Positions 6,420 through 63,157 of a stretch of 64,000 nt of DNA are shown here, piece by piece. Source of the stretch: Chaetoderma sp. LZ-2023a. Lineage: Eukaryota; Mollusca; Caudofoveata; Chaetodermatida; Chaetodermatidae. Positions within the stretch are counted from its first letter, which is position 1; the number at the start of each line of letters is the position of its first letter. The stretch lies in NCBI GenBank assembly GCA_034401795.1, contig CM067366.1, forward strand, positions 68,346,014 through 68,410,013, read 5' to 3'. Made by a program: the position numbers and the translations under genes. The notes below the pieces were generated by a model. That model was not told where the DNA came from. It saw only the letters and a list, made by a program, of their open reading frames with translations, and ran no database searches.

Positions 6420-7000
6420 TTTCTATGAAATGAAGCCATCATAGAAAATGATGTCATTGAAGGTTGTCGATGTCTTAGACAGCTACAAGTTTCAACAATG
6501 CTATTTTCAAGAGAAACATTAAGCTATCAGAAGAGAATAGTGTGATATTTGCAAACTTGGAAATGAAGCCATCATAGATTGCTCCACATTTTGAAAACGA
6601 TATCATTGAAGGTTGTTGATGTCTTAGACTGCTACAAGTTTCAACAATGCTATTTTCAAGAGAAACATTAAGCTATCAGAAGAGAATAGTGTGATATTTG
6701 CAAACTTGGAAATGAAGCCATCATAGATTGCTCCACATTTTGAAAACGATATCATTGAAGGTTGTTGATGTCTTAGACAGCTACAAGTTTCAACAATGCT
6801 ATTTTCAAGAGAAACATTAAGCTATCAGAAGAGAATAGTGTGATATTTGCAAACTTGGAAATGAAGCCATCATAGATTGCTCCACATTTTGAAAACGATA
6901 TCATTGAAGGTTGTTGATGTCTTAGACAGCTACAAGTTTCAACAATGCTATTTTCAAGAGAAACATTAAGCTATCAGAAGAGAATAGTGTGATATCTGGA
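6420..7000. repeat. 149-bp tandem repeat, about four copies
   Basis: The landmark atgaagccatcatag recurs at about 6430, 6563, 6712 and 6861. The last three intervals share a 149-bp period and the first copy is 16 bp shorter and diverged. Copies 2-4 are almost identical, so the expansion is recent. It starts about 90 bp upstream of the MTMR exon at 6332. Confidence 0.9.
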
Positions 7001-7064
7001 AACTTACCATATTAATAAATGGTAATAATCAAGCCGGACCAAATGATTTCGGTATTATGGTCTT

Positions 7065-7490
7065 GAGAAATGTCCATTTATAGGCCAAGAGATAATTTTT
7101 GAAAGTTTACCACTGGAATGACTGACTCGATAAATGAGCCAGTTTAAGTTCAGTAACAAATTTTCAAAAAATGTCTTTTCTTCGCCAGCAAATGGACAGT
7201 CACTAAGCAAAATTTGGATTTTCTTGAGCCATTTTGACCTTTACAGATGTTAAACCTTTAATGGTCTACATTTTTCAAGAAAATTGGCATTTTTGCTCAG
7301 TGAATGTCCATTTGCAAGCCAAAATAAGACTATTTTGGCAAATTTACCACTTGAATGAATGGCTCAATTAGTGCGCCAGTCATTCCAGTGTTAAATTTTC
7401 AAAGATATTCTTATTTTACCCTGCAAATGGACATTCCTCAAGACCAGTGCAGAGGCCGGTTATGGCTGGCTTGACCAGTAAATGGTTAAA
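7065..7490. repeat. Two family A copies
   Basis: Near-palindromes at about 7065-7250 and 7247-7490, of the subtype with 'ggccggct/aatggtcaa' ends and cattccagtg arms. Confidence 0.6.
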
Positions 7491-12367: not shown

Positions 12368-13250
12368 TAACCATTTAATGGTCAAACCGGCCAAAACCGG
12401 CCTCTACAGTGGTCTTGAGGTGTCCATTTGCACACCTAGACAATACTATTTTTGATAATTTACCACTGGAATGACTGGATCATGCAAAGAAGTTGGAGGC
12501 ATTTCTCTTCATCAAATATAACAAAGATCATTGAGAAAAGTGCTCAAAGTAGCAACAGGCATGTTCATAATAATGGGTATAATTCCTAAATTCTATCAGA
12601 AACATTTCCTGCCGATTTTCCCACATTTGGTAAATACAGAGAAAGTAGTGATAGTCCAAACTAGTGACAATATTGACCAGAAACCGCCGTAATGTTATAT
12701 AATACCTCATGCCATGACTAACTGAACCAATTCCCTCATATGATGCTGATTTCAGATGATGCATAAAATGTGCCATAACCATTTAACCCTTAAATGTGTG
12801 TAAGAAAATGTCTATGGTCTCATAAAAATGTCCTTTTGCAGACCAAGAGAAGGCTATTTTTGAAAATTTAACACTGGAATGACTGGCTCGGTTATCGAGC
12901 CAGTCATTCCAGTGGTAAATTAGAAAAAATAGTCACCTCTTGGTCTGCAAATGGACATTTGTCAAGACCACTTCAAATGCCATTTTTGGCCCGTTTCAGT
13001 GTTAAAAAGTTAACAATCAAGCCGGCAAAAACTGGCCTCTGCACTAGTCTAGAGGAATGGTCTTGTCGAATAACGATTTGCAGACCAAGAGAAGACTATT
13101 TAAAAAATGTTGCCACCTGAATGACTGGCTCAGTAACAGCCAGTCATTCCAGTGACTGATTTTCAAAAATAATGGTTCGTGGTCTGCAAATGAACATTTT
13201 CTATGACAAAATGGAAATTTTCTTGAACAAATTTGAGGTTTATAAAGGGT
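12368..13250. repeat. Three family A copies
   Basis: A fragment at 12368-12480 and near-complete elements at 12779-13013 and 13013-13250. The last two abut at a shared gttaacaatcaa junction. Confidence 0.7.
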
Positions 13251-18930: not shown

Positions 18931-19360
18931 CAATGAAATGATACGGCTGAGGCCACGATTATACGCGCCGCTTTCGTCATGATGCCGGTCCCTGATATGG
19001 CGCCAATTCAGACTTCGGTCACAAATCCGGGACCAGCGTCAGGATCAAAACGTCACGTGCAATCACATTTCATTATCGTATATCCAGACAGTTACCCTAG
19101 TCACCCTAATCTCCTGATACATGGCACACGTTTACCTATACACCAAACTTGCCAAATTGGCAAATTGAAGGCACCTTTCCATCGATGTTCAGTAAAGCCA
19201 GAAAACTAAGTTACCTTAATACATGACAAACCAATAGCCAAGAGATACAGCCATAGCCACTGGTCGATGATCATTGGCTGAAGTGATGAAACTAGCTTAA
19301 GAGTTAGATGTTTCTTTAAATCGTGGGAAAGACCAGAAATGCTTAGAAGACAATCAATAA
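18931..19360. other. No gene recognised
   Basis: Spacer between the Penelope-like remnant and the inverted-repeat-flanked element; no shared repeat seen. Confidence 0.4.
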
Positions 19361-19487
19361 TTAGTACAGTAGAAATTGACATGGACCCGGACATTTTGTA
19401 TAACAGACAAATTTTTGTTTTAATCACTTCGGTATCACCCAAAATACATCCCAGAAAAATTCTCCAAAATTCACACATGGGGAAATA
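19361..19487. repeat. Left terminal inverted repeat
   Basis: Contains outer cagtagaaattgac, core CCGGACATTTTGTATAACAG (within the 24-bp identity at 19385-19408) and inner ttcacacatggggaaa. All are matched in reverse complement at 24773-24908 with similar spacing (43 versus 41 nt between core and inner block). Confidence 0.8.
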
Positions 19488-19694
19488 TGTTTTTTAGAGG
19501 AAATTCAAAATGGCCGCCAAGGCGATGACCAATAACCAGGTAATATGTATTTTGACTCTAAAAACCTGTGTTTTGGTAAGTGTTGTACAGTTTAAAGTAT
19601 GTCATCATCAAAATCACTTGATAAACTATAAATTTAATGCAAACTGAGCGACTGTTGTGAAACACAGCGAACAGGCAGAACGGCTGAAATTTGT

Positions 19695-21183
19695 CTATGC
19701 ATTTTCACTTTCAAATTTCGAGCTGTTAAGGCAGTGACCTTCACATTTACAATGTAGGCTACAGGGAATGCCTTTCTTGGAGCAACTACACGAGGAACAC
19801 AGACGTGTGCTGCTTTTACACTGGCACCTTATATTTAGAAGTAGCTCCGGAGGCGCTGCTGACTTGTCCGTAATGATCGCCGTCACTGATCCTTGTTCTA
19901 CTGCATAACCATACTCTTCTTTCTTTAACACAGTTTTTAGGTGAAGCCATGTGCTTGCTTGGAGATGAACCCGAAGGCTATGGAAGTATGCTGCCCTACG
20001 TGTGGGTGGCATCCTTTCAACTGGTACATGCTTAGGAGAGATGGCAGTCATGTATCTGAGATTGTCTAAGCCAGGACTTCTTGATCCAGCACCATACAAA
20101 GACTTAATGTACTTTTCACCAATAACCATTATATCCGCCTTTGATCTGGAGATGTCGCCAAATGCAAGTACATCTTGTCTGAGGGTTGGTGAAGATTGGA
20201 TCATTTTCATATGCTTTACTTTGCCCATGCCATATAAAGCTGATGTCGTGTCACATCCAGACATACTATGGACGAATGGCAGGCACATACACAATTCCTT
20301 GCCTAAGATCTCTGTGGCCACTTTGATGCATAGCTTATGTTGCTTTGTTTGTAGGAAAATATTTGCAGAGGTGCTTGCATGATAGAGGAGTAAGATCAAT
20401 ATGTCTGTATCGTCAGCAACAACTATCGTTGTTCTTTCAGTTCCTGCCAATTCTAATGCTCTCCTTACAATCACCACATCAGCATCGCCTTCATCTACTG
20501 CATGTACCACCTCAACACCTGCATCTGATAAATGTTTTGCCAACAGATTTATGGTATTCTGCTTGTTGCGTTTGTTTGATAGAAATCCAGTTTTGTTTCC
20601 TGGAACAGGTGTGTTGTCTTGGACAGCTCCATCAGGAGCACCAACTTGATTAAGCCATCGTCGCTTCTGTTCTTGATCTTTTGTGGTCTCAGTTTGATAG
20701 TTATCAAATATAACGCATACAGGCTCATCAAGCCTCTGATAATGTACTACTGATGCTACGAATGAGCTACAAACGGTCTCCATTGTTCCAACCTTAGGCC
20801 ATGGTATCCGATGCAAAAGTGTGCAGCCATCAAATACTCTTGCAGCTGGCTCTGTTGTCTCTTGCTGTAGCATTGATGTGTTCATTTCAATTATATACTT
20901 CGCCAGTTGTGACTTTTGCGATTTCCTCATAGCTCTGTCATCGTGGAAGAGGGTGGGACATACCGTTGCAAGCTCGTATTCAAAGATTGCTTTGTCTGGA
21001 GGTCCTGAAACAGATGCAGTTGACATTAAGCGATGGTACAGCTCCTGGGAAGACATATGGACATCTTCATTTCCTACTTTAACTACCTTTCGCATGACAG
21101 CAAATGTTACAGCTTGATCTGCTTTCTTTAGCGTAATGTCGCCAAACCTTTTCTCATTTAACTTCTCATGAATTCTTCGACCC
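19695..21183 (-). CDS. FEN1/XPG-like nuclease domain with C-terminal CXC zinc module
   Basis: This is the last ~495 codons of the element's coding region. Numbering is from the in-frame ATG at 21224; true reading enters after a +1 shift at 21181-21183. A flap-endonuclease-like fold is suggested by motif order. RVFDGCTLL has D132, like the first FEN1 aspartate. CVIFDNYQ...K...KRR (D174) resembles the XPG-N box. AVDEGDAD (E245/D247) and VVADDTDILILLL (D272/D274) resemble the XPG-I box. HSMSGCDTTSALYGMGK (D325) resembles the LLGCDY..I.GIG helix-turn-helix. All acidic positions needed for two-metal cleavage are present. Residues 467-498 hold nine cysteines spaced CXCX6CX2CXCX6CX3CXCX3C, as in tesmin/TSO1 CXC DNA-binding modules. 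The MSGCDTTS-type signature is, to my knowledge, common in uncharacterised multicopy metazoan proteins. The stop is at 19695. Biochemical role is inference. Confidence 0.75.
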
Positions 21184-21411
21184 AATATCAATGGCATCAT
21201 CGGCAGTAACACGATGGTCTGCAATCAAACCAGTTGCGATATTTCTCAGTTGGTCGTCTTCAACTGTGAATGGATTGTGTTCTCTGAGAAACAGAGTGAA
21301 TTTCTTCATGTCTTCTACATCTCGTCTCATATTTGCAGGGTGAACATCTCTGTGTTGTTCCGACCATGTCCCGGTGAACGTGTCAGTCAATGACCGCAGA
21401 GTGTGTGTTTA
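21166..21411 (-). pseudogene. Linking segment between in-frame stop and frameshift
   Basis: A TAA at 21411-21409 ends the upstream open frame, yet the same frame continues at once with protein-like sequence: FTGTWSEQHRDVH, RRDVEDMKKFTLFL, NPFTVEDDQLRNIATGLIAD. It ends at AIDIG, where a GGG (CCC on the plus strand, 21181-21183) marks a one-base shift; the next frame continues GRRIHEKLNEKRF. One extra G explains the break. The single stop and single shift, with sense on both sides, suggest recent inactivation or base-call errors rather than long decay. They could in principle be recoding sites, but no support for that is visible. No splice sites flank these breaks. Confidence 0.7.
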
Positions 21412-24273
21412 CTGTGCTATGATGTGTGCAGTGAGAAGCCATTTTGTTCTAGCGGATTCTTTGTGCGTTATATTGATCAATCCACCCTGTGTCTTCCCAG
21501 CTCTTATTAGACTCTGTTCAATTGTCATATCAGACCAGGTACCACTCCAATACAGTTTAGCATTCCTGCGTACAGCAAAGTGCCCTTCATGCATGGGACC
21601 ATCCAGACAAGTACATAGATCATCAGAATCTTGGAGGTAAAGGCGACAACACTTTGTGTAATTGTTGTGCCCTGCAGCAGCAAAGAATGGCAACATTAGT
21701 TGTGTCGCCTTTAAATGAAAGAGCCAATTACCAGTATGCTCAGCCCTGATGAACAATCGTACAATGGCGACAAATTCCATGAACAACGACCACAATTTAC
21801 CAGTTCTTGATTTCTCTACGTTTTCCTTCAAATTAGAAACTTGCTTACATAGGTCTTGCAAATGGTCATTGTCACAAACATCGTCTGCTGAAATATCATG
21901 TGACATAATAGCATCGTATAAATTGCGCAGCTCTGACCACATATCATCCATTGACATATGTGTTTGACTTTCACAACATGTTTCTGTTTCGGTTGTTTGC
22001 TCATCCGAAGCGTCATCGCTATCAGGATCAACATCACTTTCTTCATCTTGCAGCTCTGCAAATTCAGATTCACCATATGTACTGCTGGGTGTGTTGTCTG
22101 CAGCACTGCCTTGTAGAGAAATTATATCAACATCGGGTTGAATTAACAAAAGATGCAATGCGGCATCTGTAATGAGGCATGCTCTTAATGTCTTTGTGTA
22201 AGCTTTTCCCTCCATTATCCTAGGTAGGGAATTCCTAGCATACACAGTTGCCCATAAATCATCGATGCTACTCCCCTCCATGATCTTACAGCCCGCTCCA
22301 AGAAAGGACATTAGTTGGTGGAAGCCACCCAGCCGTATATACATGTTCCTAAACTGTGGATGAGTGTCTTGCTTAATTTTGTAGCTTTTTAAGTACAATG
22401 GCTGGTCAAATGTTCTGGTTGCGCAACACAGTCCTGCCTTTAGGGATTGGGACTGCACATACATCATGGTACTATATACAGCTTCATTTGTTCCTGGATT
22501 CAAAGGTACCATGCGGTTGTAAACTACTGCCGTGCAGTGGAAATTGTTGCATGTCGTTATTTCAGACATGAACCGCTGCCAGTTTGGTGGCTGACTTGTG
22601 AGACGGCTAGAGTACAACCACAATGTGTCTAATTGACCGTGCATAGCAATAGGTAAGCTGATGGGGTTAATGGTCTTTATCCTTACATCTGCCATTAGGA
22701 ATTTATTAGAAGACGTGTAGGGTAGCATGAAGCTCCCAAAATCACCAGCTTCTTTGATCTCATCAGCAGTTATAGTTTTACGACATATTGCCCCAACTGG
22801 GTTAGCCCTGCTTTCGGTTGATGCCATTGTTTTACACGAAATGATCCCCATCACATGCGTTGTATCATGACCAGAAATCATGTCCTCGTTGTAATCAAAA
22901 TTGTCAGCTACCCATTGACAGAACCCCTCTCCATCCTTCTTCTCCACGAGCCCAGGACACAGGTCTTCAACGGATGTGCTTCCAACTGCAGATCTCTGAA
23001 ATGCAATTACCTGGTCATAGGAAGCACTGAGTCCCAGGGATGAGAGCATATCTATGATAACACGGGAGTGGGTAGACTGGTGGATGAACAAACCAATGGA
23101 CAGAAGCAGTGGTGATACAAATGATTGCTTTCCAACAGCTTGCATGATAACATGACATACAGATACCATCTTAAGTTTATTTTTCAACTTGGCAGATTCA
23201 CTACGAGGTTCAGAATAGATACATGAAATAAGATGTTTCAATGCATCTGGCACCTCGATTTCAAGCTTTTCAAGGTCTAAACTGGACAGTTCTGGATACA
23301 CATCTGATGGTTGATCAATATCTTTAATTGTTTGATTAATCATAGATCCCACCAGTCTAACAAGTCGCATAGTTTCATCACTCTCGTTACTGGTTGATGC
23401 TGCATATGATTCGTGTATGATAGAAGATGCCCTATCAGTCAATGTGACCACGCTTGTCTTGCCTTCAACCTGGGATATTGTCACATCTGTCCCAAATCGG
23501 CCGAGCAGATGACGCTGGACGTGCTTTATGCTATATGCGGGTACACCATTTGGCAAGTAGGTGGTCAATTGCGTACGAAGGTCGTGTAAAGTGAACTGGT
23601 GCTGTTGCTGTTCTGGTGCTGTTAGCCAATTGCATAGATGGTTAAAGCCCACATCATTCATTTCATCAAAGTTCCGGGCATTACTTCCAGAAGCACCACA
23701 CGAACTGATGTTTCTACAAGAGATGAATTCTTGCATACATTGACGATGATATTTGGCTTTAACAGCACATAGGTCACCTGCAAAAAGTATTCTTGCTTTA
23801 ACATCATTCGCTAACGAATCGTGCCTTTTGCCACACGCGTTTAACAAGGTTCCCTGGACTACACTGAGTTTACCCTTACTAACATATTCAATATTGCTTA
23901 TGTGAGAATGCCGTTCAGGGTGACGGCGGACAGCATCAAAGTCGAGCTCTTCAGCACATATCAAACAATGAGTATGGTAATCATAATGATTAGATTCGGA
24001 GCGCAGTGTAGGGGTAGATGGTCGAACTCCTTCATCGTTTCTGTTTTGCTGTTGCACTTTTGCAATATTTCTAGGCAACGTGTAATTTTTGTAGCATTTA
24101 TCGTGTACATAATGTTCGTTCGACGGAGATAGTTTCAAATCAATACCATCTCCACGAAGCTTTGAAGCGTCAAGCAGCGTTGAAAGCCCTTTATGACTAA
24201 GTTTTCTAGAACTGCTGCTATCATGGGAAACATTACATACAACACATGTTTTTTCTTGCGTAGGGTCAGACAT
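21409..24273 (-). CDS. Large N-terminal part of the element protein: two CX2C/HX2C modules and a conserved unknown core
   Basis: 954 codons from an ATG at 24273, uninterrupted. Residues 10-60 form a CX2C...HX2C module (C10, C13, H57, C60). A second module follows (C103, C106, H176, C179). Both look zinc-binding. Residues ~453-475 contain VADNFDYNEDMISGHDTTHVMG and residues ~645-660 LGGFHQLMSFLGAG. I recall both patterns (ADN.DHN.....G..TFHGMG; RLGGFH..MS.LG) from many uncharacterised cnidarian, mollusc and arthropod proteins that also carry the MSGCDTTS signature. Residues ~730-765 are an acidic, low-complexity linker. The frame stops at a TAA (21411-21409), after which homologous-looking sequence resumes in the same frame. 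Whether the core is a diverged RNase H-like transposase (D in ADN, H/D in LGGFH) is an open guess. No introns, unlike the host MTMR gene. Confidence 0.75.
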   Translation of the reverse strand: MSDPTQEKTCVVCNVSHDSSSSRKLSHKGLSTLLDASKLRGDGIDLKLSPSNEHYVHDKCYKNYTLPRNIAKVQQQNRNDEGVRPSTPTLRSESNHYDYHTHCLICAEELDFDAVRRHPERHSHISNIEYVSKGKLSVVQGTLLNACGKRHDSLANDVKARILFAGDLCAVKAKYHRQCMQEFISCRNISSCGASGSNARNFDEMNDVGFNHLCNWLTAPEQQQHQFTLHDLRTQLTTYLPNGVPAYSIKHVQRHLLGRFGTDVTISQVEGKTSVVTLTDRASSIIHESYAASTSNESDETMRLVRLVGSMINQTIKDIDQPSDVYPELSSLDLEKLEIEVPDALKHLISCIYSEPRSESAKLKNKLKMVSVCHVIMQAVGKQSFVSPLLLSIGLFIHQSTHSRVIIDMLSSLGLSASYDQVIAFQRSAVGSTSVEDLCPGLVEKKDGEGFCQWVADNFDYNEDMISGHDTTHVMGIISCKTMASTESRANPVGAICRKTITADEIKEAGDFGSFMLPYTSSNKFLMADVRIKTINPISLPIAMHGQLDTLWLYSSRLTSQPPNWQRFMSEITTCNNFHCTAVVYNRMVPLNPGTNEAVYSTMMYVQSQSLKAGLCCATRTFDQPLYLKSYKIKQDTHPQFRNMYIRLGGFHQLMSFLGAGCKIMEGSSIDDLWATVYARNSLPRIMEGKAYTKTLRACLITDAALHLLLIQPDVDIISLQGSAADNTPSSTYGESEFAELQDEESDVDPDSDDASDEQTTETETCCESQTHMSMDDMWSELRNLYDAIMSHDISADDVCDNDHLQDLCKQVSNLKENVEKSRTGKLWSLFMEFVAIVRLFIRAEHTGNWLFHLKATQLMLPFFAAAGHNNYTKCCRLYLQDSDDLCTCLDGPMHEGHFAVRRNAKLYWSGTWSDMTIEQSLIRAGKTQGGLINITHKESARTKWLLTAHIIAQ

Positions 24274-24772
24274 AATTGTACTAAACCATTAATTAGCATT
24301 AACAATGTGATTTTGACTCTATATATTTATCATTTTATAATTGAATCGACTTAACTTACTTCAAGTAACATTTTCTAAATTTACCCCGGACTATATATTA
24401 TTGTAATAGTAAGAATAATAGCGTTAGGAATATTTATATCATTGACTGCATAGTTGCGATCAACATGCTGTCCATATGTGTAACTCTCTCCGTCAGATCT
24501 TTAAAAAAACTGGCCATACATTGATGTACCATGTTCTGGAATTCACACTCATGTATCAAATCATATATGGTTGTTATAGACAGGTTTTACTGATTAATTT
24601 TAATTTACATCAGTATGTCTTACAGGTTATTTGACTGGGATCTGTTGTCATATACACAATTGACAATAGCAATTGTCAGTAGGTCTAATTTTATAAAATT
24701 CTCAACAGATTACCTATTTATGCTAAATATTTTTCACATTTCGTTCCCTAACTTCAAAGGGTTAAAAATCAG

Positions 24773-24908
24773 GTTTCCCCAAGTGTGAATTTGTGAGAAT
24801 TTCTTGTGTGGACTCTGGACAGTCATAAAAAGTGTTTGGAACACAAAATCGTCTGTTATACAAAATGTCCGGGTTAGCCTATATTTCTGTTGATTTCTAC
24901 TGGACTAA
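24773..24908. repeat. Right terminal inverted repeat
   Basis: Reverse complement of the left repeat: inner tttccccaagtgtgaa (24774-24789), core at 24851-24874 and outer atttctactg (24893-24902). Just outside, gtccgggttagcctata is echoed by gtcgggacaaatctggctata, a subterminal repetition absent on the left. Confidence 0.8.
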
Positions 24909-25044
24909 ATGGTCGGGACAAATCTGGCTATATGGAAGATTATCTAGTGTCTGAATTACTATGTTGCATTTTCTTAGCTTAACTCACAGTCTGATAGTCA
25001 GGAAATCAAAGCAATTCGCATGATTGTTCTGCAGTAGTCTCACG

Positions 25045-29883: not shown

Positions 29884-31165
29884 TATACCTACTTAGTCAG
29901 AAAGATTAATACCTACTTAGTCAGAAAGATTAATACCCACTTAGTCAGAAAGATTAATACCTACTTAGTCAGAAAGATTAATACCTACTTAGTCAGAAAG
30001 ATTAATACCTACTTAGTCAGAAAGATTAATACCTACTTAGTCAGAAAGATTAATACCTACATAGTCAGAAAGATTAATACCTACTTAGTCAGAAAGATTA
30101 ATACCTACTTAGTCAGAAAGATTAATACCTACTTAGTCAGAAAGATTAATACCTACTTAGTCAGAAAGATTAATACCTACTTAGTCAGAAAGATTAATAC
30201 CTACTTAGTCAGAAAGATTAATACCTACTTAGTCAGAAAGATTAATACCTACTTAGTCAGAAAGATTAATACCTACTTAGTCAGAAAGATTAATACCTAC
30301 TTAGTCAGAAAGATTAATACCTACTTAGTCAGAAAGATTAATACCTACTTAGTCAGAAAGATTAATACCTACTTAGTCAGAAAGATTAATACCTACTTAG
30401 TCAGAAAGATTAATACCTACTTAGTCAGAAAGATTAATACCTACTTAGTCAGAAAGATTAATACCTACTTAGTCAGAAAGATTAATACCTACTTAGTCAG
30501 AAAGATTAATACCTACTTAGTCAGAAAGATTAATACCTGCTTAGTCAGAAAGATTAATACCTGCTTAGTCAGAAAGATTAATACCTGCTTAGTCAGAAAG
30601 ATTAATACCTGCTTAGTCAGAAAGATTAATACCTGCTTAGTCAGAAAGATTAATACCTGCTTAGTCAGAAAGATTAATACCTGCTTAGTCAGAAAGATTA
30701 ATACCTACTTAGTCAGAAAGATTAATACCTACTTAGTCAGAAAGATTAATACCTACTTAGTCAGAAAGATTAATACCTACTTAGTCAGAAAGATTAATAC
30801 CTACTTAGTCAGAAAGATTAATACCTACTTAGTCAGAAAGATTAATACCTACTTAGTCAGAAAGATTAATACCTACTCAGTCAGAAAGATTAATACCTAC
30901 TCAGTCAGAAAGATTAATACCTACTTAGTCAGAAAGATTAATACCTACTCAGTCAGAAAGATTAATACCTACTTAGTCAGAAAGATTAATACCTACTTAG
31001 TCAGAAAGATTAATACCTACTTAGTCAGAAAGATTAATACCTACTTAGTCAGAAAGATTAATACCTACTTAGTCAGAAAGATTAATACCTACTTAGTCAG
31101 AAAGATTAATACCTACTTAGTCAGAAAGATTAATACCTACTTAGTCAGAAAGATTAATACCTACA
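29884..31165. repeat. 24-bp satellite array, about 53 copies
   Basis: The unit is tacctacttagtcagaaaga followed by ttaa (24 bp), repeated without spacers. Seven consecutive units (about 30537-30684) carry ctgc in place of ctac, three near 30875-30950 carry ctcag, and single variants occur near 29938 and 30060. Because 24 is a multiple of three, one of six frames stays open (an 8-residue TYLVRKIN repeat). It has no ATG and I do not treat it as coding. Confidence 0.98.
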
Positions 31166-31377
31166 TAGCCCAGTTAATGTTTTAATGGTCAATCCTCTGT
31201 AAGCTACTTGACAAATGTTCATTTACCAGACAAAAGAAGACGTTTTTAAATTTACCACTGCTCGATATTTGAACCAGTCATGGTAGTGATAAAAGTTCTT
31301 AAATTGCCTTGATTATCTTGGTTTGCAGGTTGCCATGGACACTAGTCAAACAAAAAATTTGTAAACAGTTTTTCCCA

Positions 31378-31913
31378 TTAACCTAACACTCATAATAGCC
31401 AAAAAAAAGAAGCAAAAACGGCTTCTGCAGTGGTCTTGAGAAATGTCCATTTGCAGACCAAAAGAAGACTATTTTTGAAAATTTACCACTGGAATGGCTG
31501 GCTCGATAACCGAGCCAGTCATTCCAGTGGTAAATTGTCACCAATAGTCTTCTCTTGGTCTGCAAATGGACATTTTATGGGAAAATCTAATTTTTTAAAA
31601 CAAATTCAATTGTTATGCCACTTTAATGGCTGAATTTGGTCTAGAAATCTAAATATTTACTGATTAAATAGGTGAATTACCTATATGATTGCGGACTCAA
31701 AGAAGTCCTTTAATTAGTAAATATTTAGCAGGCCAAGCGAAGACTATTTTTGAAAATGTACTACTGGAATCACTGGCTCGGTTATCGAGCCAGTAATTCC
31801 AGTGGTATATGTTGTAAATTTTCACAAATAATCTTCTCTTAGCCTGCAAATGGACATTTCTCTAGACCACTGCAGAAGCCGCTTTTTGCTGGATTGAGCG
31901 TGAGAGGGTTAGC
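31378..31913. repeat. Two family A copies
   Basis: 31378-31625 has a near-perfect hairpin (ggctggctcgataaccgagcc tip). 31720-31913 ends in gagggttagc and contains an extra atgttgtaaatt insertion in one arm. Family F sequence lies between them. Confidence 0.75.
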
Positions 31914-32071: not shown

Positions 32072-32680
32072 TTCCAGTTTAGCCATCCATCATATGACTT
32101 CTTAATCAACGATGTGACATGTCGGATGACATCATAATCAATTACAGCATGAATGACTCGACTTAGTCTGTCTTAACCCTTTAACACTCATATCAGCCAA
32201 AAACAGCTTCGGCAGTAATCTTGCGAAATGTCCATTTGCAGACCAAGAGAAGACTATTTTTGAAAATTTACCACTGGAATGACTGGCTCGATAACCGAGC
32301 CAGTCATTCCACTGGTAAATTTTCAAAAATAGTCTTCTCTTGGTCTGCAAATAGACATTTTTTATGAGAAAATTGAAATTTTTATGAACAAATTCAAGTG
32401 TTAAAGGGTTAAACGCTTAATAGTCTGGCACATTGTACTAATTGTAGTTCTTTGCTATTTCATAAACACGCTGTTGAATACTTTGAAACTAATTTGACTG
32501 GGCACTGTTGTTGCCATAGGCAGCAACAGAAGCCTGTCAAATTAGTTTTAAAATATTCAACAGCTTACGTGTACAGTTTTCTGGAAGTTGATAATTAGGG
32601 AGTTCATGGATCGATCCCAACGTGAATATGGTATGGGCGGACCTTAGCGAGTGATGGGCGGGGCATAGCTAAAATATGTA
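32072..32680. repeat. Family B element interrupted by a family A insertion
   Basis: Left part 32072-32172 (gagcctttccagtttagcc... tgacatcataatca... cttagtctgtc), right part 32413-32680 (acgcttaatagtctgg... central hairpin... gggcggggcatagctaaaa). The break is exactly where uninterrupted relatives read gtccttaactcttaatagtcc (50700-50730). Confidence 0.85.
32173..32412. repeat. Full-length family A element with TTAA target duplication (reference copy)
   Basis: 240 bp from TTAA (32173-32176) to TTAA (32409-32412). The terminal inverted repeats are TTAACCCTTTAACACT. Inside lies a ~75-bp stem running from gtccatttgcagaccaagag through a ggctcgataaccgagcc tip to its complement. The two flanks between TIR and stem differ from each other. 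TTAA duplication and CCCTTT termini fit piggyBac-type non-autonomous elements. Confidence 0.88.
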
Positions 32681-39323: not shown

Positions 39324-40038
39324 AAACAAGATGGATGCTGGGAGAAAAAATTTACCAATAAAATTTCTGTATAAAAGTTTGGAAGCCTATAGCAGGACTC
39401 GTGATTATTAGATTCTACTAAGCCTACTGATTATATAGCCATTACTTGGAAGATGAGGTGATTAGTTTTAGCCATTATACTACAGAGTATCGGTCTTACA
39501 ATGTATGTTATTCAATTGCGTATTGTGTGAAAATTGGTGTAATTTTGATAACCATGAGACGTGGCTGAAAAACAAATTCTGCTCAACTCTTTAACACTTA
39601 AGCTAGCCAAAAATTTTAGAAAATTTTTCTCTGGAATGACTCTTATCATATTTATGAGAAAATTTAAGTTTTCTTTAACAAATTCGAGGGCTAAAGGGTC
39701 ATGGTAGCAACAGTTTCCAGCAACTCCATTCTCAAAAATACACCCCCCCACCCACCCCACCCCCCGCCCCCTTTCCTATCATCGGACAACTCCTGTATTT
39801 GGTGTACGCTACTCATATTATATCCCTAAGATATCAATAGTTACTCGCCCACTACGCTGGTGATCCACAAATAGTACTAGTCCTGGTAAATTTCTACTAA
39901 CTTCGAGCCAGCGGGGATAGTGTTAGTTTCAGCCCTTGAAATACAACTGAAATGACTGGCTCGGTTATCTTCTCTTGACTTGCAAAAGGACATTTCTGAA
40001 GATTACTGTTGAGGCTGGTTTTGGCCGGCTTGACCATT
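39324..40038. other. No gene; family A scraps and a C-rich run
   Basis: 39585-39700 and 39945-40038 are shortened family A pieces; 39743-39772 is almost pure C. Confidence 0.4.
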
Positions 40039-40269
40039 AACCCTTTAACACTCACATCAGCCAAAAATGGCTTCAGTACTGCTCTTGAGAAATGCGCATT
40101 TGCAGACCAAGAGAAGAATATTTTAGAAAATTTACCAATGGAATGGCTGGCTCGATAACCGAGTCAGTCATTCCAGCAGTAAATTTTCAAAGTCTTCTTG
40201 GTCTGCATATGGACATTTTCTATGAGAAAACTGAAATTTTCTTGAACAAATTTGAGTGTCAAAGGGTTA
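40039..40269. repeat. Family A, nearly full length
   Basis: Starts ttaaccctttaacactcaca and ends gagtgtcaaagggttaa. Confidence 0.8.
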
Positions 40270-40675: not shown

Positions 40676-40832
40676 AGCATCAATTTATCAGTTACATTGA
40701 CAATATATCTCTCACAGAATGATATGGGTTAGAATCTGATAGAGCCACTGACTTCATTTGGATCCTTAGCTCGGTCTGTTACCAGATTTCTCGTAATCAC
40801 ACTGGCTGGCACACACTACAGTGATGAACTTA

Positions 40833-41463
40833 ACCCTTCAACGGTCAACATTGGGCAAGAACATTAAAAACTTTGCATCGTGAATGTACATTTGTAGGCC
40901 AAGAGAAGACTATTTTTGAAATTTTACTACTGGAATGACTGGCTCGATTATCAAGACAGACATTCCAGCGGTAAAATTTCAAAAATAGTCTTCTCTTGGC
41001 CTGCAACTGGATGCTTCGATCAGAGGCCAGTCTGGGCTGTCTTTACCATTAACCCTCAAGCTGGCCAAAAACGACTTCTGCAGTGGCCTTGAGAAATTTC
41101 CATTTGCGGACCAAGCGAAGAATATTTTTGAAAATTTACCACTGGAATGACTGGCTCTATAACTGAGCCAGTCATTCCACTGGTAAATTTTAAAGTCGTT
41201 TCTTGACCTGTAAATGAACATTTTCTATCCGTATTCACAAACAAGGCGCAGAATATCTCGTTTAAGCCTTTCATGGCCGAAGCCAGCCAAAACCAGCCTC
41301 TTTAGTGGTCCTGTGGAATGTCCATTTGCAGGCCAAGAGAAAACTATTTTTTTTAAATTTACAACCTAAATGACTGGCTCAATAACTTCTCTTGGTCTGC
41401 AAATGGACATTCAATAAGTAAATATATTAATTTTTAAAAACAAATTTAGTCATTAAAGGGTTA
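40833..41463. repeat. Three family A copies in a row
   Basis: 40833-41055, 41052-41230 and 41268-41463; the last ends cattaaagggttaa. The first two share a ccattaaccct junction. Confidence 0.7.
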
Positions 41464-45104: not shown

Positions 45105-45777
45105 CCGTTTAACACTCATATCAGGCAAAAATAAATCCAATTTTTTAAAATTTAACACTTGAATAACTGACTCGATAACCGAGCCAGTCATTCAAGTGGT
45201 ACATATTCAAAAATAGTCTTCTCTTGGTCTGCAAATGGACATGTTCTATGGGAAAATTAAAATTTTCATGAACAAATTCGCGGGTTGAAGGCTTAAGAAT
45301 GCTTTTAGAACAATTTGTCATTTTACTCATTCCGTGGTACACACTGCTGAAGTAGGAAACAAGAGTGTGCTTCACTGGGGATCAAATACTTTCATGCAAA
45401 GTGGGCATTCAGAAATCTCAAATTCCCCAGAAGACATGCAATAGAGGGATACATTTCTAACAATACAACCCGCATCCCCCCCCCCACCCCAACCAATTGC
45501 TAGATAAGATCTGCCCACTTTGTACGCCAACACAAAGCGATCTTATCAATTTAACCATCAAATTTGTTGAAGAAAATTTAAACTTTCTCATAGAAAATGT
45601 TCATTTGTAAACAAGACTATTTTTGAAAATTTACTACTACAATGACTGCCTCGGTTATCGAGCCAGTCATCCAGTGGTGAATTTTCAAAAATACTTTTCT
45701 AGTGGTCTGCAAATCTAAATTTGTCAAGTTCACTACAGATGCCATTTTTTGGCTGATATGAGTGTTAAAGGGTTAAC
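45105..45777. repeat. Two family A copies
   Basis: 45105-45296 (starts accgtttaacactcatat) and 45548-45777 (ends gagtgttaaagggttaa). Confidence 0.7.
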
Positions 45778-53214: not shown

Positions 53215-54202
53215 AAATGCCCATTTGCAAACCAACTTCAAGAGAAAGCTATTTTTGAAAATTTATCACTGGAATAACTGGCTAAATATTCTTCTCTTGG
53301 TCTACAAATGGCCATTTCTCAAGATCACTTGCAGAGAATGTTTTTGGGCCACCTTGAGTGTTAAAGGCGTAATTACTGGTATGGCCAATGGCCTGATTTC
53401 TGTGGATTTTCATGATTTGATTTTATATTTTTATAAGATTCTGTTGACCAGTAAAAATATACTGCAAACCACGAATGATATGCATATTCAAAGGTTGGAA
53501 CGCACAAAAAATTAATTTCAAAACAATGTTACAACAAGCAGCCTACTAAATATTTTGAAATTAATTTAAATTGAATGATTTAACTGCCAAAAGAATTGGA
53601 CTTGAAATCATTGACATATAGTGTGAGATGTAATTTCATAAAATCTAAATTAATTAGTAAAATATTTACGTATTTATGTGAATTTAACACTGGGAAGCGA
53701 GGACTATCCATTTTGAATTTTATGTAAGTTTGGCATTAACCATTTCGACAGAGCTTGGGATGTTAGTTGAGGATAATTAACCCTTTACTGATCACATCGA
53801 CCAAAACCGGCCGCTGAATAGTCTTGTGGAATGAATGTTTGCAGAGTAAGAGATTATTTTTGAAAATTTCCCACTGAAATGGCTGGCTCAGTAACAGAGT
53901 CAGTAATTTGTGGTAAATTTTAAAAGGGAAATATTTAGATTTTCTCGACCAAATTTGACCATCAACTCTTTAAGCCTTGAATTTGTTCAAGAAAATTTCA
54001 ATTTTCTCATAGAAAAAATGTCAAATTGCAGACCAAGAAGACTATTTTTACAAATTTACCACTGGAATGACTGGCTCAGTTATCGAGTCAGTCATTCGAG
54101 TGGTAAATTTAAAAAAATAGTCATCTCTTGTTCTTCAAATGGACATTTCTAAAGACCACTGCAGAAGCCATTTTTGGCTGATATGAGTGTTAAAGGGTTA
54201 AA
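53215..54202. repeat. Three family A copies with a hairpin relic
   Basis: 53215-53372, 53779-53930 and 53960-54202 (ends gagtgttaaagggttaa). Between them, 53530-53590 has half of the central hairpin. Confidence 0.65.
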
Positions 54203-54690
54203 GGGTAACTAGATCCACGAAGTTACCCTTTTTCACATTTGATTGGGATCTAGTTAACATTAGGTAACTATTGTTAGCGAATCAAACTTGACCCTGGTTG
54301 CTCACTCACCGAGCCTGTTTGAATGTTGCTGTTGATGGGTTTTTGCTCGATTGCACGGTAGTCATTGTTGAAGTTGAGACGAACACATCAAATACTTAGC
54401 TATACATCTTTACTTCATTCCGTATGCATGGCCCGAGATTCAGTTGTTCGGGTGACTGATTGATGACACAAGTCACACAATGGCCAAGATGGAGGTAGTA
54501 ATCAGCGAGGAACGATTGCAATTATCCCATTACCTTTGTCTAGACACGTCCCTTCAAAGTCTGACCAGCATGCCAATGATGGACACTTACCCATTTCCTT
54601 GCATGCCAATCATCCTGACAAAAACACATCTCATCATGTATGTCACTGATCGTCATGGTTATATGCTTCAGCAAAAAATTGCTGAATATA
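54203..54690. other. No gene recognised
   Basis: Starts with an inverted pair (gggtaactagatccac / gatctagttaacattaggtaac). A 71-codon plus-strand frame from 54480 lacks any known motif. Confidence 0.35.
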
Positions 54691-58049: not shown

Positions 58050-60580
58050 ACCCAGAAAATAGTTTGGTCGGCTGCAATAATATCTGGGGAGGTGTTCCGT
58101 TCTTATTTTCTGGAAATAAGGGCAAACTAAGATGTAATGGAACTCGTCGCTGATGTCATTCTTATCACACAATGGGCATATCCGTTCTTCTCTGGGTCAC
58201 CCCTCCCATCCCCCTTTTTCGATCGGTAAGTGATGATTACTAGTCCTAAATTTAGAAAAACTGATGTGATGTCTATCCACAAGTTTAAGCATATATGGTT
58301 CAATTTCAAAATTTTCTTTAAACGATTTGTAATTTTTTTCCTTCCATAATTCCCCTAATTGACTCGTCCAGTTTTGCATGTATTGGTCAATTAAGTTTTG
58401 TTTTAATTGCCGTTTGACTACATTCATGCTATTTACTGCTTGTCTGTCCCATATATATCCCATCCTGCTTTCTTCCAAGTATTTCTTTAATTTTAATTAA
58501 CCATTTATATTGGGTGGAACAGAAAACATAGTCATTGTATGTATATTGATAAATTTGGTTTGATATTTTAGACTGTTTACCCATGATAAGTCTTAACCAG
58601 AAATTTATCATACGTTGTTTTATAGATATTATTAGTGGTAGTTCACCAGTTTCGCCATACAGCATGTACTTTGATGTACTTGGCCTAAGCTTAAGTAACT
58701 GTCTCAAAAACAATATCTTCACCTTTTCCAGTATATTCCAATTTTCTACTCTTATAATTTCAGAGCCATATAGTAGTATCGGCTGAATTAGTTTGTTAAA
58801 TGGCTTTAGATGGCAATCTATTGGCAAATCTAGTTCTCGTGCACGACGATTTAATGCGTAGGTGGCTTTATTGGCTCGCTCAGCAATATGTTTTCCTGCG
58901 GTAATAAGTCGGCAGTTGAACATGAAATACACACCAAGATACTTATAACTATCTACACTATCGATTGCCAGCTCCTTTATCGTGAATCCTAATTTACTAT
59001 AATATTGCTTCGTGCTTCCAAATACTACTACCTTTGTTTTTTCAATATTTATTTTTAATTTCCATCGGTCAACGTATTCATCAAATGTGTCGAGGGATTT
59101 CTGCATGTCAGTTGGGCTTTCGCCCATAATTACGGTATCGTCAGCGTAGAGTAAGATGAATAATTTAAGAAAAGTAGTTATTTCTTCGTTTGTCGTTTTT
59201 AATCTTATTGGCTTACAGTTTTTGTTTTCTAGGTATGTTTCCAGGTTGTTGAGATAGATGGCAAACAGAACCCGTGACAGGTTTTCACCTTGCCTCACAC
59301 CTAAATTGCATATTATTGTATCAGATAGTTCATTATTCAATTTTATTCTAGACTTACTATTTTTATACATGTTTTGGATTACATTGAGTACTTTGCCATC
59401 TGTTTTGTGATTCGCTATTTTCCATCAAAGACCTGGCCTCCAAACTTTATCAAAAGCTTTTTTGAAATCCACGAATGTGCAGAATAATGTTTTTCCTTGT
59501 TTCTGTAATAATTCAATTAGTTGATAGAGCGCGTATATAAATGCTCAGTTGTGGAATAATTCAATTAGTTGATAGAGCGCGTATATAAATGCTCAGTTGT
59601 GGAATAATTAAATTAGTTGATAGAGCGTGTATATAAATGGTCAGTTGTGGAATAATTCAATTAGTTGATAGAGCGCGTATATAAATGCTCAGTTGTGGAA
59701 TAGTTGTGGAATAATTCATTTAGTTGATAGAGCGCGTATATAAATGGTCAGTTGTGGAATAATTCATTTAGTTGATAGAGCGCGTATATAAATGGTCAGT
59801 TGTGGAATATTCTTGTCTAAAGCCGGCTTGAACTTCCAGTAGTTGTTCTGTATCGTTTAGTATTGCATGGATTCGTTTGCTAAGGATTGAGGTGAAAAGT
59901 TTTCCCAAACAGCTTAATAGTGTGATTGGCCTATAATTTTGTGGTTCTTTTGGATTGCCTTTCTGTTTATAGATAGGTATAATTATACCTTCCGTCCACG
60001 CTTCGGGAATTACTGCTGTATCTAAGACTTGGTTGAAAATATATATGTATATATTCATCATAATGTCCTCAGTTGCTTTAATATATTCATTTGTGATTTT
60101 ATCTACACCGGCTGCTTTATTATTCTTTAGCAATTTTATAGCTTTAGATATTTCATCAGCAGTAATTGGTCGGTTTAATTCTTCATTTTCATCGTTTGCG
60201 TTTGGGTGTGCAAAGTCTTGTCCATCCGTCTCTCCGTTATTAGGGTCGTTTAGGTTTCTAAAGAAAGTGTACATCTTGTTTTTATCTACCGGACATCCTT
60301 CACGGGTCTTTCTTTCTTTTATAATTTTCTAAAATGCTTTAGGGTTACTTAGGTTTAAATCACGTATTTTCTTTCTAAAGTTATGTCTATATTCCATTAT
60401 AGAGTTATTCATTTTATGTTTATATTCATTACCAGCCTTAATCATGTCTTCTCTATTTTGTTCAGTTCGCCTTTGCTGGTATTTCTTTCTGGCAGCGCAG
60501 TACGATTGTCTTTTGCTTTTACACTCTCGGTTAAACCAAGGATGGTTTGGGTGGTTTTTTTGTGTACGCTTCGTGTTTCT
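58050..60580 (-). pseudogene. 5'-truncated non-LTR retrotransposon (RT and C-terminal zinc motif)
   Basis: The minus-strand order is that of a LINE second ORF without its endonuclease. It opens HPWFNRECKSKRQSYC near 60530, then an in-frame TAG near 60331. DEISKAIKLLKNNKAAGVDK and IIPIYKQKGNPKEPQNYRPI lie at 60180-59920, with LEVQAGFRQEYSTTDH at about 59810. After a 48-bp tandem block come CTFVDFKKAFDKVW (~59460), a TGA near 59428, and GVRQGENLSRVLFAIYLN. LLYADDTVIMGE (catalytic YADD) is near 59140. A C-terminal ICPLCDKNDISDEFHYILVC near 58100-58180 gives CX2C...H...C. Three frameshifts or more and two stops make it dead. It is a jockey/RTE-like LINE in general appearance; I cannot fix the clade. 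It sits inside a family D repeat. Confidence 0.85.
59508..59806. repeat. 48-bp tandem repeat inside the RT sequence, six copies
   Basis: ttgatagagcg recurs at 59521, 59569, 59617, 59665, 59724 and 59772: intervals of 48 except one of 59, where an 11-bp tagttgtggaa is duplicated. The unit is the RT's own coding sequence (in one frame IYALYQLIEL on the minus strand). Confidence 0.93.
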
Positions 60581-62966: not shown

Positions 62967-63157
62967 TTTAACCCTTTTTTATAGAAAAGAGAAGACTGAC
63001 TATTTTTGAGAATTTACCACTGGAATGACTGGCTCTGTTATCGATCCAGTTATTCCAGTGGTCAAATTTCAAAAATAGTCTTCTCACGGTCTGCAACTGG
63101 ATATTTCTCAAGACCACTGCAGAAGCTGTTTAGCTGATATGAGTGTCAAAGGGTTAA
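62967..63157. repeat. Family A copy
   Basis: Arms ccactggaatgactggctct / ccagttattccagtggtcaa; ends gagtgtcaaagggttaac. Confidence 0.7.

Follow-up and report, generated by a model that had tools for sequence, protein, structure and literature searches.

A probable AcademX-type DNA transposon encoding a transposase core and a FEN1-like nuclease in the genome of the mollusc Chaetoderma sp. LZ-2023a

A 64-kb stretch of the genome of the mollusc Chaetoderma sp. LZ-2023a (contig CM067366.1, positions 68,346,014 to 68,410,013; hereafter the window) contains an element of 5,546 bp (19362-24907) with terminal inverted repeats (TIRs) and a single minus-strand gene, flanked on both sides by the 3-bp target-site duplication AAT (Table 1). 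A sequence-only reading of the window had placed this element at 19361-24908. It is indeed bounded by TIRs, but comparison of genome copies fixed its ends at 19362 and 24907, the bases 19361 and 24908 being part of the duplicated target and lying outside the element. The 24-bp perfect inverted pair reported in that reading (19385-19408 and 24851-24874), with inner and outer matching blocks, is present; at up to three mismatches the 24-bp repeat has only two matches within the window and none in 100 shuffles. Overall, the TIRs are imperfect, about 135-145 bp long, and start with TAGT(A/C)CAGTA. Within the window, the matching blocks cover 45, 40 and 21 bases at 85-87% identity. A longer stretch on the inner side of the window's right arm aligns to left arms from other copies at 74-75% identity.

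The window element is a damaged autonomous copy, with one stop and one frameshift in its single gene. The first open reading frame (ORF) ends at the stop, past which the frame goes on until a frameshift near 21240 leads into the second ORF. The coding region of about 1,500 codons that had been proposed from the letters is thus not open in the window copy, whereas it is intact, as a 1,484-aa frame, in a related family of the same genome (see below).

Table 1. Features of the element (window positions)
Feature	Position	Strand	Basis
Target-site duplication AAT, left copy	19359..19361	.	copy comparison, duplication count
Left TIR, begins TAGTACAGTAGAAAT	19362..19496	+	inverted repeat search, genome copies
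Second part of broken frame, 509 aa: FEN1/EXO1/XPG-like nuclease and C-terminal cysteine-rich CXC module	19695..21224	-	
CXC (Tesmin/TSO1-like) module, residues 466-501 of 509-aa ORF	19722..19829	-	Pfam match below cut-off
Nuclease core, acids D132, D174, D247, D249, D272, D274, D325 (MSGCDTTS) of 509-aa ORF	20190..20867	-	
Coding stretch between ORFs, in first-ORF frame up to frameshift near 21240	21225..21408	-	
First part of broken frame, 954 aa: zinc modules, helical region, DDE transposase core	21409..24273	-	
Probable RNase H-like transposase core, residues 443-954 of first ORF	21412..22947	-	model fold, conserved acids
Second zinc-binding module, C103/C106 ... H176/C179	23737..23967	-	residue conservation
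First zinc-binding module, C10/C13 ... H57/C60	24094..24246	-	residue conservation
Right TIR, begins TAGTCCAGTAGAAAT on minus strand	24763..24907	-	inverted repeat search, genome copies
Target-site duplication AAT, right copy	24908..24910	.	copy comparison, duplication count

Conservation of residues was counted in alignments of hand-picked, mostly long relatives (34 in alignment A4 and 35 in alignment A5). Both CX2C/HX2C modules that had been proposed for the N-terminal region are present, and all four of their residue pairs are invariant or nearly so. The cysteines of the proposed C-terminal CXC module are likewise conserved in the aligned relatives, whereas its match to the Pfam CXC model stays under the cut-off.

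The two ORFs were modelled structurally, each as a whole. In the model of the first ORF, the acids of the probable transposase core are D457/D460, lying on the first strand, D623, which follows the fourth, and E919 in a late helix; a large insertion of helices lies between them. According to a second-look structure aligner, its fold is nearest to those of the P-element and Hermes transposases, and the D, D and E are conserved; Foldseek alone gave no significant structural match for this core. Part of it is matched in relatives by the Pfam family DUF6589 (PF20231), which reached or exceeded its cut-off in 6/13 relatives scanned singly (P0004, P0130, P0133, P0143, P0154 and P0155), while in the window copy the score is 14.4, below the cut-off of 27. 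The word DUF6589 was not found in the literature searched. Two options had been put forward for this protein, namely that the nuclease itself is the transposition enzyme or that it lies beside a hidden transposase core, and the RNase H-like core with its D, D and E fits the second. A transposase core of DDE type probably sits N-terminal to the nuclease in the same protein.

The FEN1/XPG-like domain suspected in the second ORF is supported by a profile match, the model fold and all seven acids. A profile of 30 relatives matched EXO1 structures (E 2.7e-4) with the four catalytic blocks in order and 6/7 acids aligned. For the 509-aa model (predicted local distance difference test, pLDDT, 89.6), E-values of the structure matches run from 4.5e-5 to 1e-3 with FEN1, EXO1 and Rad2 and amount to 2.9e-3 with XPG, but the TM-score by query is only 0.25-0.40, and identity in the matches listed is 9-15%; XRN1/XRN2 were matched as well. 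Pfam XPG models gave no match in the two window ORFs or in the 30 relatives. The seven acids are kept in the window copy and in 35/35 relatives of the alignment, with either D or E at one position, and we take them, including the first, to correspond to the respective acids in FEN1 numbering. Hence, both the active-site acids and the 5'-nuclease fold of the FEN1/XPG superfamily are found here. While the element's nuclease has these in common with FEN1, EXO1 and XPG (Rad2), it differs from them in lying within a transposon protein together with a cysteine-rich tail. No biochemistry of such a fused protein turned up in the literature searches, none of which was aimed at that.

The 2.44-Gb genome was searched with 37-bp patterns of both ends at up to three mismatches, which gave 436 matches for the left and 334 for the right end, compared to 0 for the reversed-pattern controls. 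A 140-bp left-end probe yielded 912 first-look candidates; all 40 candidates given a score show 98% identity or more, and 24/40 alignments start exactly at 19362. Pairing ends within 20 kb among the places listed (100 of 436 left and 100 of 334 right) resulted in 38 end pairs, 38/38 in the expected inverted order. They comprise 11 pairs of 5,385-5,546 bp, 22 shorter ones of 2,999-5,036 bp and five of 7.1-15.9 kb, the last perhaps being nested insertions. Short non-autonomous copies had been anticipated: shortened copies do occur (22/38 end pairs), but no miniature copy under 2,999 bp was found among the 38 end pairs from the places listed. Apart from eight long copies (see below), many are internal deletions, whose joints show a few shared bases or short filler in the alignment coordinates; such joints would fit a donor gap that was repaired incompletely.

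Target-site duplications were counted in 17 copies with both ends, comprising 16/20 fetched copies and the window copy; left out were L009, L010 and L016 (no right end in the stretch) and L014 (truncated right end). An exact 3-bp duplication is present in 11/17 copies (TAT, TAT, AAT, TTA, ATA, TTA, ATA, AAA, CTA, TTA, AAT) and missing in L011, L017, L022, L023, L027 and L028. When flanks were swapped between copies, the mean was 1.88 matches, and 11 was reached in 0/20,000 permutations. Duplications of 4, 5, 8, 9 or 10 bp were found in 0/17 copies each. For L026, the joined flanks plus one triplet align without gaps through the junction to a repeat in the flank of L028 (255/299 bases), the triplet being TTA at the L026 site and TTG in the matching empty copy. 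The joined flanks of L012, L023 and L024 also match repeats across the junction at 68-90% identity and were not counted as empty sites.

These results bear out the proposal that the TIRs belong to the gene and that the family is a DNA-transposon lineage: both ends recur around the gene, the duplication is constant at 3 bp where exact, and one matching empty site exists. The relatives are uncharacterised proteins in many animals, as they would also be if the gene belonged to a host family encoding a FEN1-like nuclease and happened to lie between unrelated inverted repeats. This reading has a negligible probability and is rejected in view of the shared ends, recurring in many copies, the duplications and the empty site. 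Furthermore, the frames of 8/8 long copies are interrupted (window, L012, L015, L018, L021, L022, L026 and L028; 5,036-5,797 bp), the longest open stretch being 1,155 aa in L022. These eight copies differ pairwise by 2.8% on average, and third codon positions are not over-represented among the differences, which is what copies that decay free of selection once inserted should show.

Related families occur in the same genome. A search with the distant relative P0109 gave 19,066 first-look candidates, of which 32 were scored. One related family was found at 27 of the places listed with frames of 1,483-1,528 codons, and in 6/27 neither matched half contains a stop. One of the latter, L037 (G000:C12:63742300-63749000), about 5.4 kb with TIRs and a 3-bp duplication, carries the single uninterrupted frame mentioned above, which is 29% and 35% identical to the two window ORFs. 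Identity to L037 is 98.98% for its copy L038 and 99.28% for L039, both of which are interrupted; these values of about 99% suggest recent movement of the lineage in the genome.

Among eight related stretches checked (L029-L033, L037-L039), TIRs spanning 5.3-6.0 kb were found in five; no inverted repeats were found in L030-L032. A scan for TAGTNCAGTA, which ends reading TAGTCCAGTC would escape, detected a single end, in L030; L031, L032 and the partial stretches L034-L036 gave none. In the five related copies 10/10 ends start with TAGTCCAGT, which is the common terminal part since some right ends read TAGTCCAGTC and not TAGTCCAGTA, and 5/5 have exact 3-bp duplications (CTA, CCA, TAA, TCG, TTA). 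Since L033 has ends similar to those of L037-L039, the five copies represent at least two families and not five. With 27-35% identity to the window ORFs, they show that the fused protein, the terminal motif and the duplication length co-occur across deep divergence. Outside this genome, protein searches found relatives in many animals as uncharacterised proteins, whereas scans of viral contigs and genome contigs with alignment A3 found none.

A transposon lineage with a DDE transposase, a nuclease and 3-4 bp duplications is already in print as AcademX, a lineage of the Academ superfamily (Kojima 2020, as cited in PMC10045372). PMC10045372 assigns duplications of 3 or 4 bp to AcademX and of 9 or 10 bp to AcademH, which it places in the same superfamily, and ties these lengths to the encoded nuclease and helicase, respectively. 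In PMC10294476, curated bivalve Academ consensuses have a mean length of 5,565 bp, to which the length of the window element is near. The window family shows duplications of 3 bp (11/17) and none of 4 bp, with 3 bp also in 5/5 related copies; the DDD/E core is seen in the second-look fold and the conserved acids, and nuclease and transposase are encoded in one open frame in L037. The nuclease of AcademX is of XPG type. Taken together, the element agrees with AcademX, compared by description, on every point examined. It is very probably an AcademX-type DNA transposon, present in the window as a decayed autonomous copy, and as such it is a new family of an already published lineage.

Other assignments were rejected. 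AcademH does not agree with 0/17 copies at 9 bp and 0/17 at 10 bp, nor with the lack of a helicase match: Pfam gave none in the two ORFs (E up to 1) or the 30 relatives (E up to 0.01), and a protein search from a distant relative for a DDE core plus helicase returned 26 matches, of which 0/8 scanned had a helicase. P elements, hAT (Hermes) and Transib/RAG1 resemble the window family in having an RNase H-like core into which a large helical region is inserted, but differ from it in that an 8-bp duplication, the length made by P and hAT elements, occurs in 0/17 copies, and to our knowledge their transposases carry no FEN1-like nuclease. EnSpm/CACTA termini start with CACTA or CACTG, whereas those of the window family read TAGT(A/C)CAGT. 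It is improbable that the element represents a new superfamily outside Academ, in which a P/hAT-like DDE transposase was independently fused to a FEN1-like nuclease. In favor of that reading, no named Academ sequence to align turned up in the sequence collections used, and Pfam offers for the core only the unnamed DUF6589, below cut-off in the window copy; yet the published AcademX and Academ statements cited above are matched in the length of the duplication, the nuclease partner and the size of the element.

How an AcademX-type protein might work can be outlined conditionally. The zinc modules would bind the TIRs, and the DDE core would release the 3' ends, which it would then join to the target at a stagger of 3 bp. 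The fused nuclease could then cut the 5' strand or flap still tying the element to donor DNA or, alternatively, trim a 5' flap where the element has been newly joined. Copies with internal deletions would arise when the gap left in the donor is repaired incompletely. We tentatively propose, as a reading less likely than not, that the nuclease is a second-strand enzyme of this kind, cutting 5' flaps to donor DNA after the DDE core has joined the 3' ends, which, if true, would explain why its active site is kept intact in the lineage. In Tn7, the labour is divided between TnsA and TnsB, and the split between nuclease and DDE core would be the eukaryotic counterpart, if this reading holds. An alternative that is only slightly less probable, concerning the mechanism only and compatible with the AcademX identity, is that the nuclease acts outside strand transfer, e.g. 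in clearing donor ends after excision or in countering host defence. Our data tie the nuclease to no given step, and the sister lineage AcademH is reported in PMC10045372 to have a helicase where AcademX has the nuclease. However, the nuclease shares one frame with the transposase in L037 and its active site is conserved in 35/35 aligned relatives, which suggests a role close to the reaction.

The window also contains other repeats. A dispersed repeat of about 130-240 bp has many copies in both orientations (among the 25 longest of 708 inverted pairs), at 7250-7489, 12824-13064, 31413-31585, 32173-32412, 39986-40191, 40830-41227, 45140-45297, 54036-54206 and 62998-63131, and is also found in the flanks of other element copies; Rfam gave no match in the window, this repeat included. 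Two reverse transcriptase pieces at 58429-60274 on the minus strand (Pfam RVT_1, E 7.9e-17 and 2.8e-5, the second below cut-off) apparently belong to a broken retrotransposon, and a tandem array (59507-59809) lies between and overlaps them. Further tandem arrays are found at 6444-7005 (149-bp unit, 3.8 copies, 98% match) and 29885-31168 (24-bp unit, 53.5 copies), the latter probably being young because its units match at 99%.

Overall, these findings connect the MSGCDTTS-type proteins, a large set of uncharacterised animal proteins, with a DNA-transposon lineage whose ends are defined, and suggest that the DUF6589 region is part of a P-element-like transposase core. With near-identical copies and at least one open frame, the related family in this genome makes the role of a flap nuclease in transposition testable.
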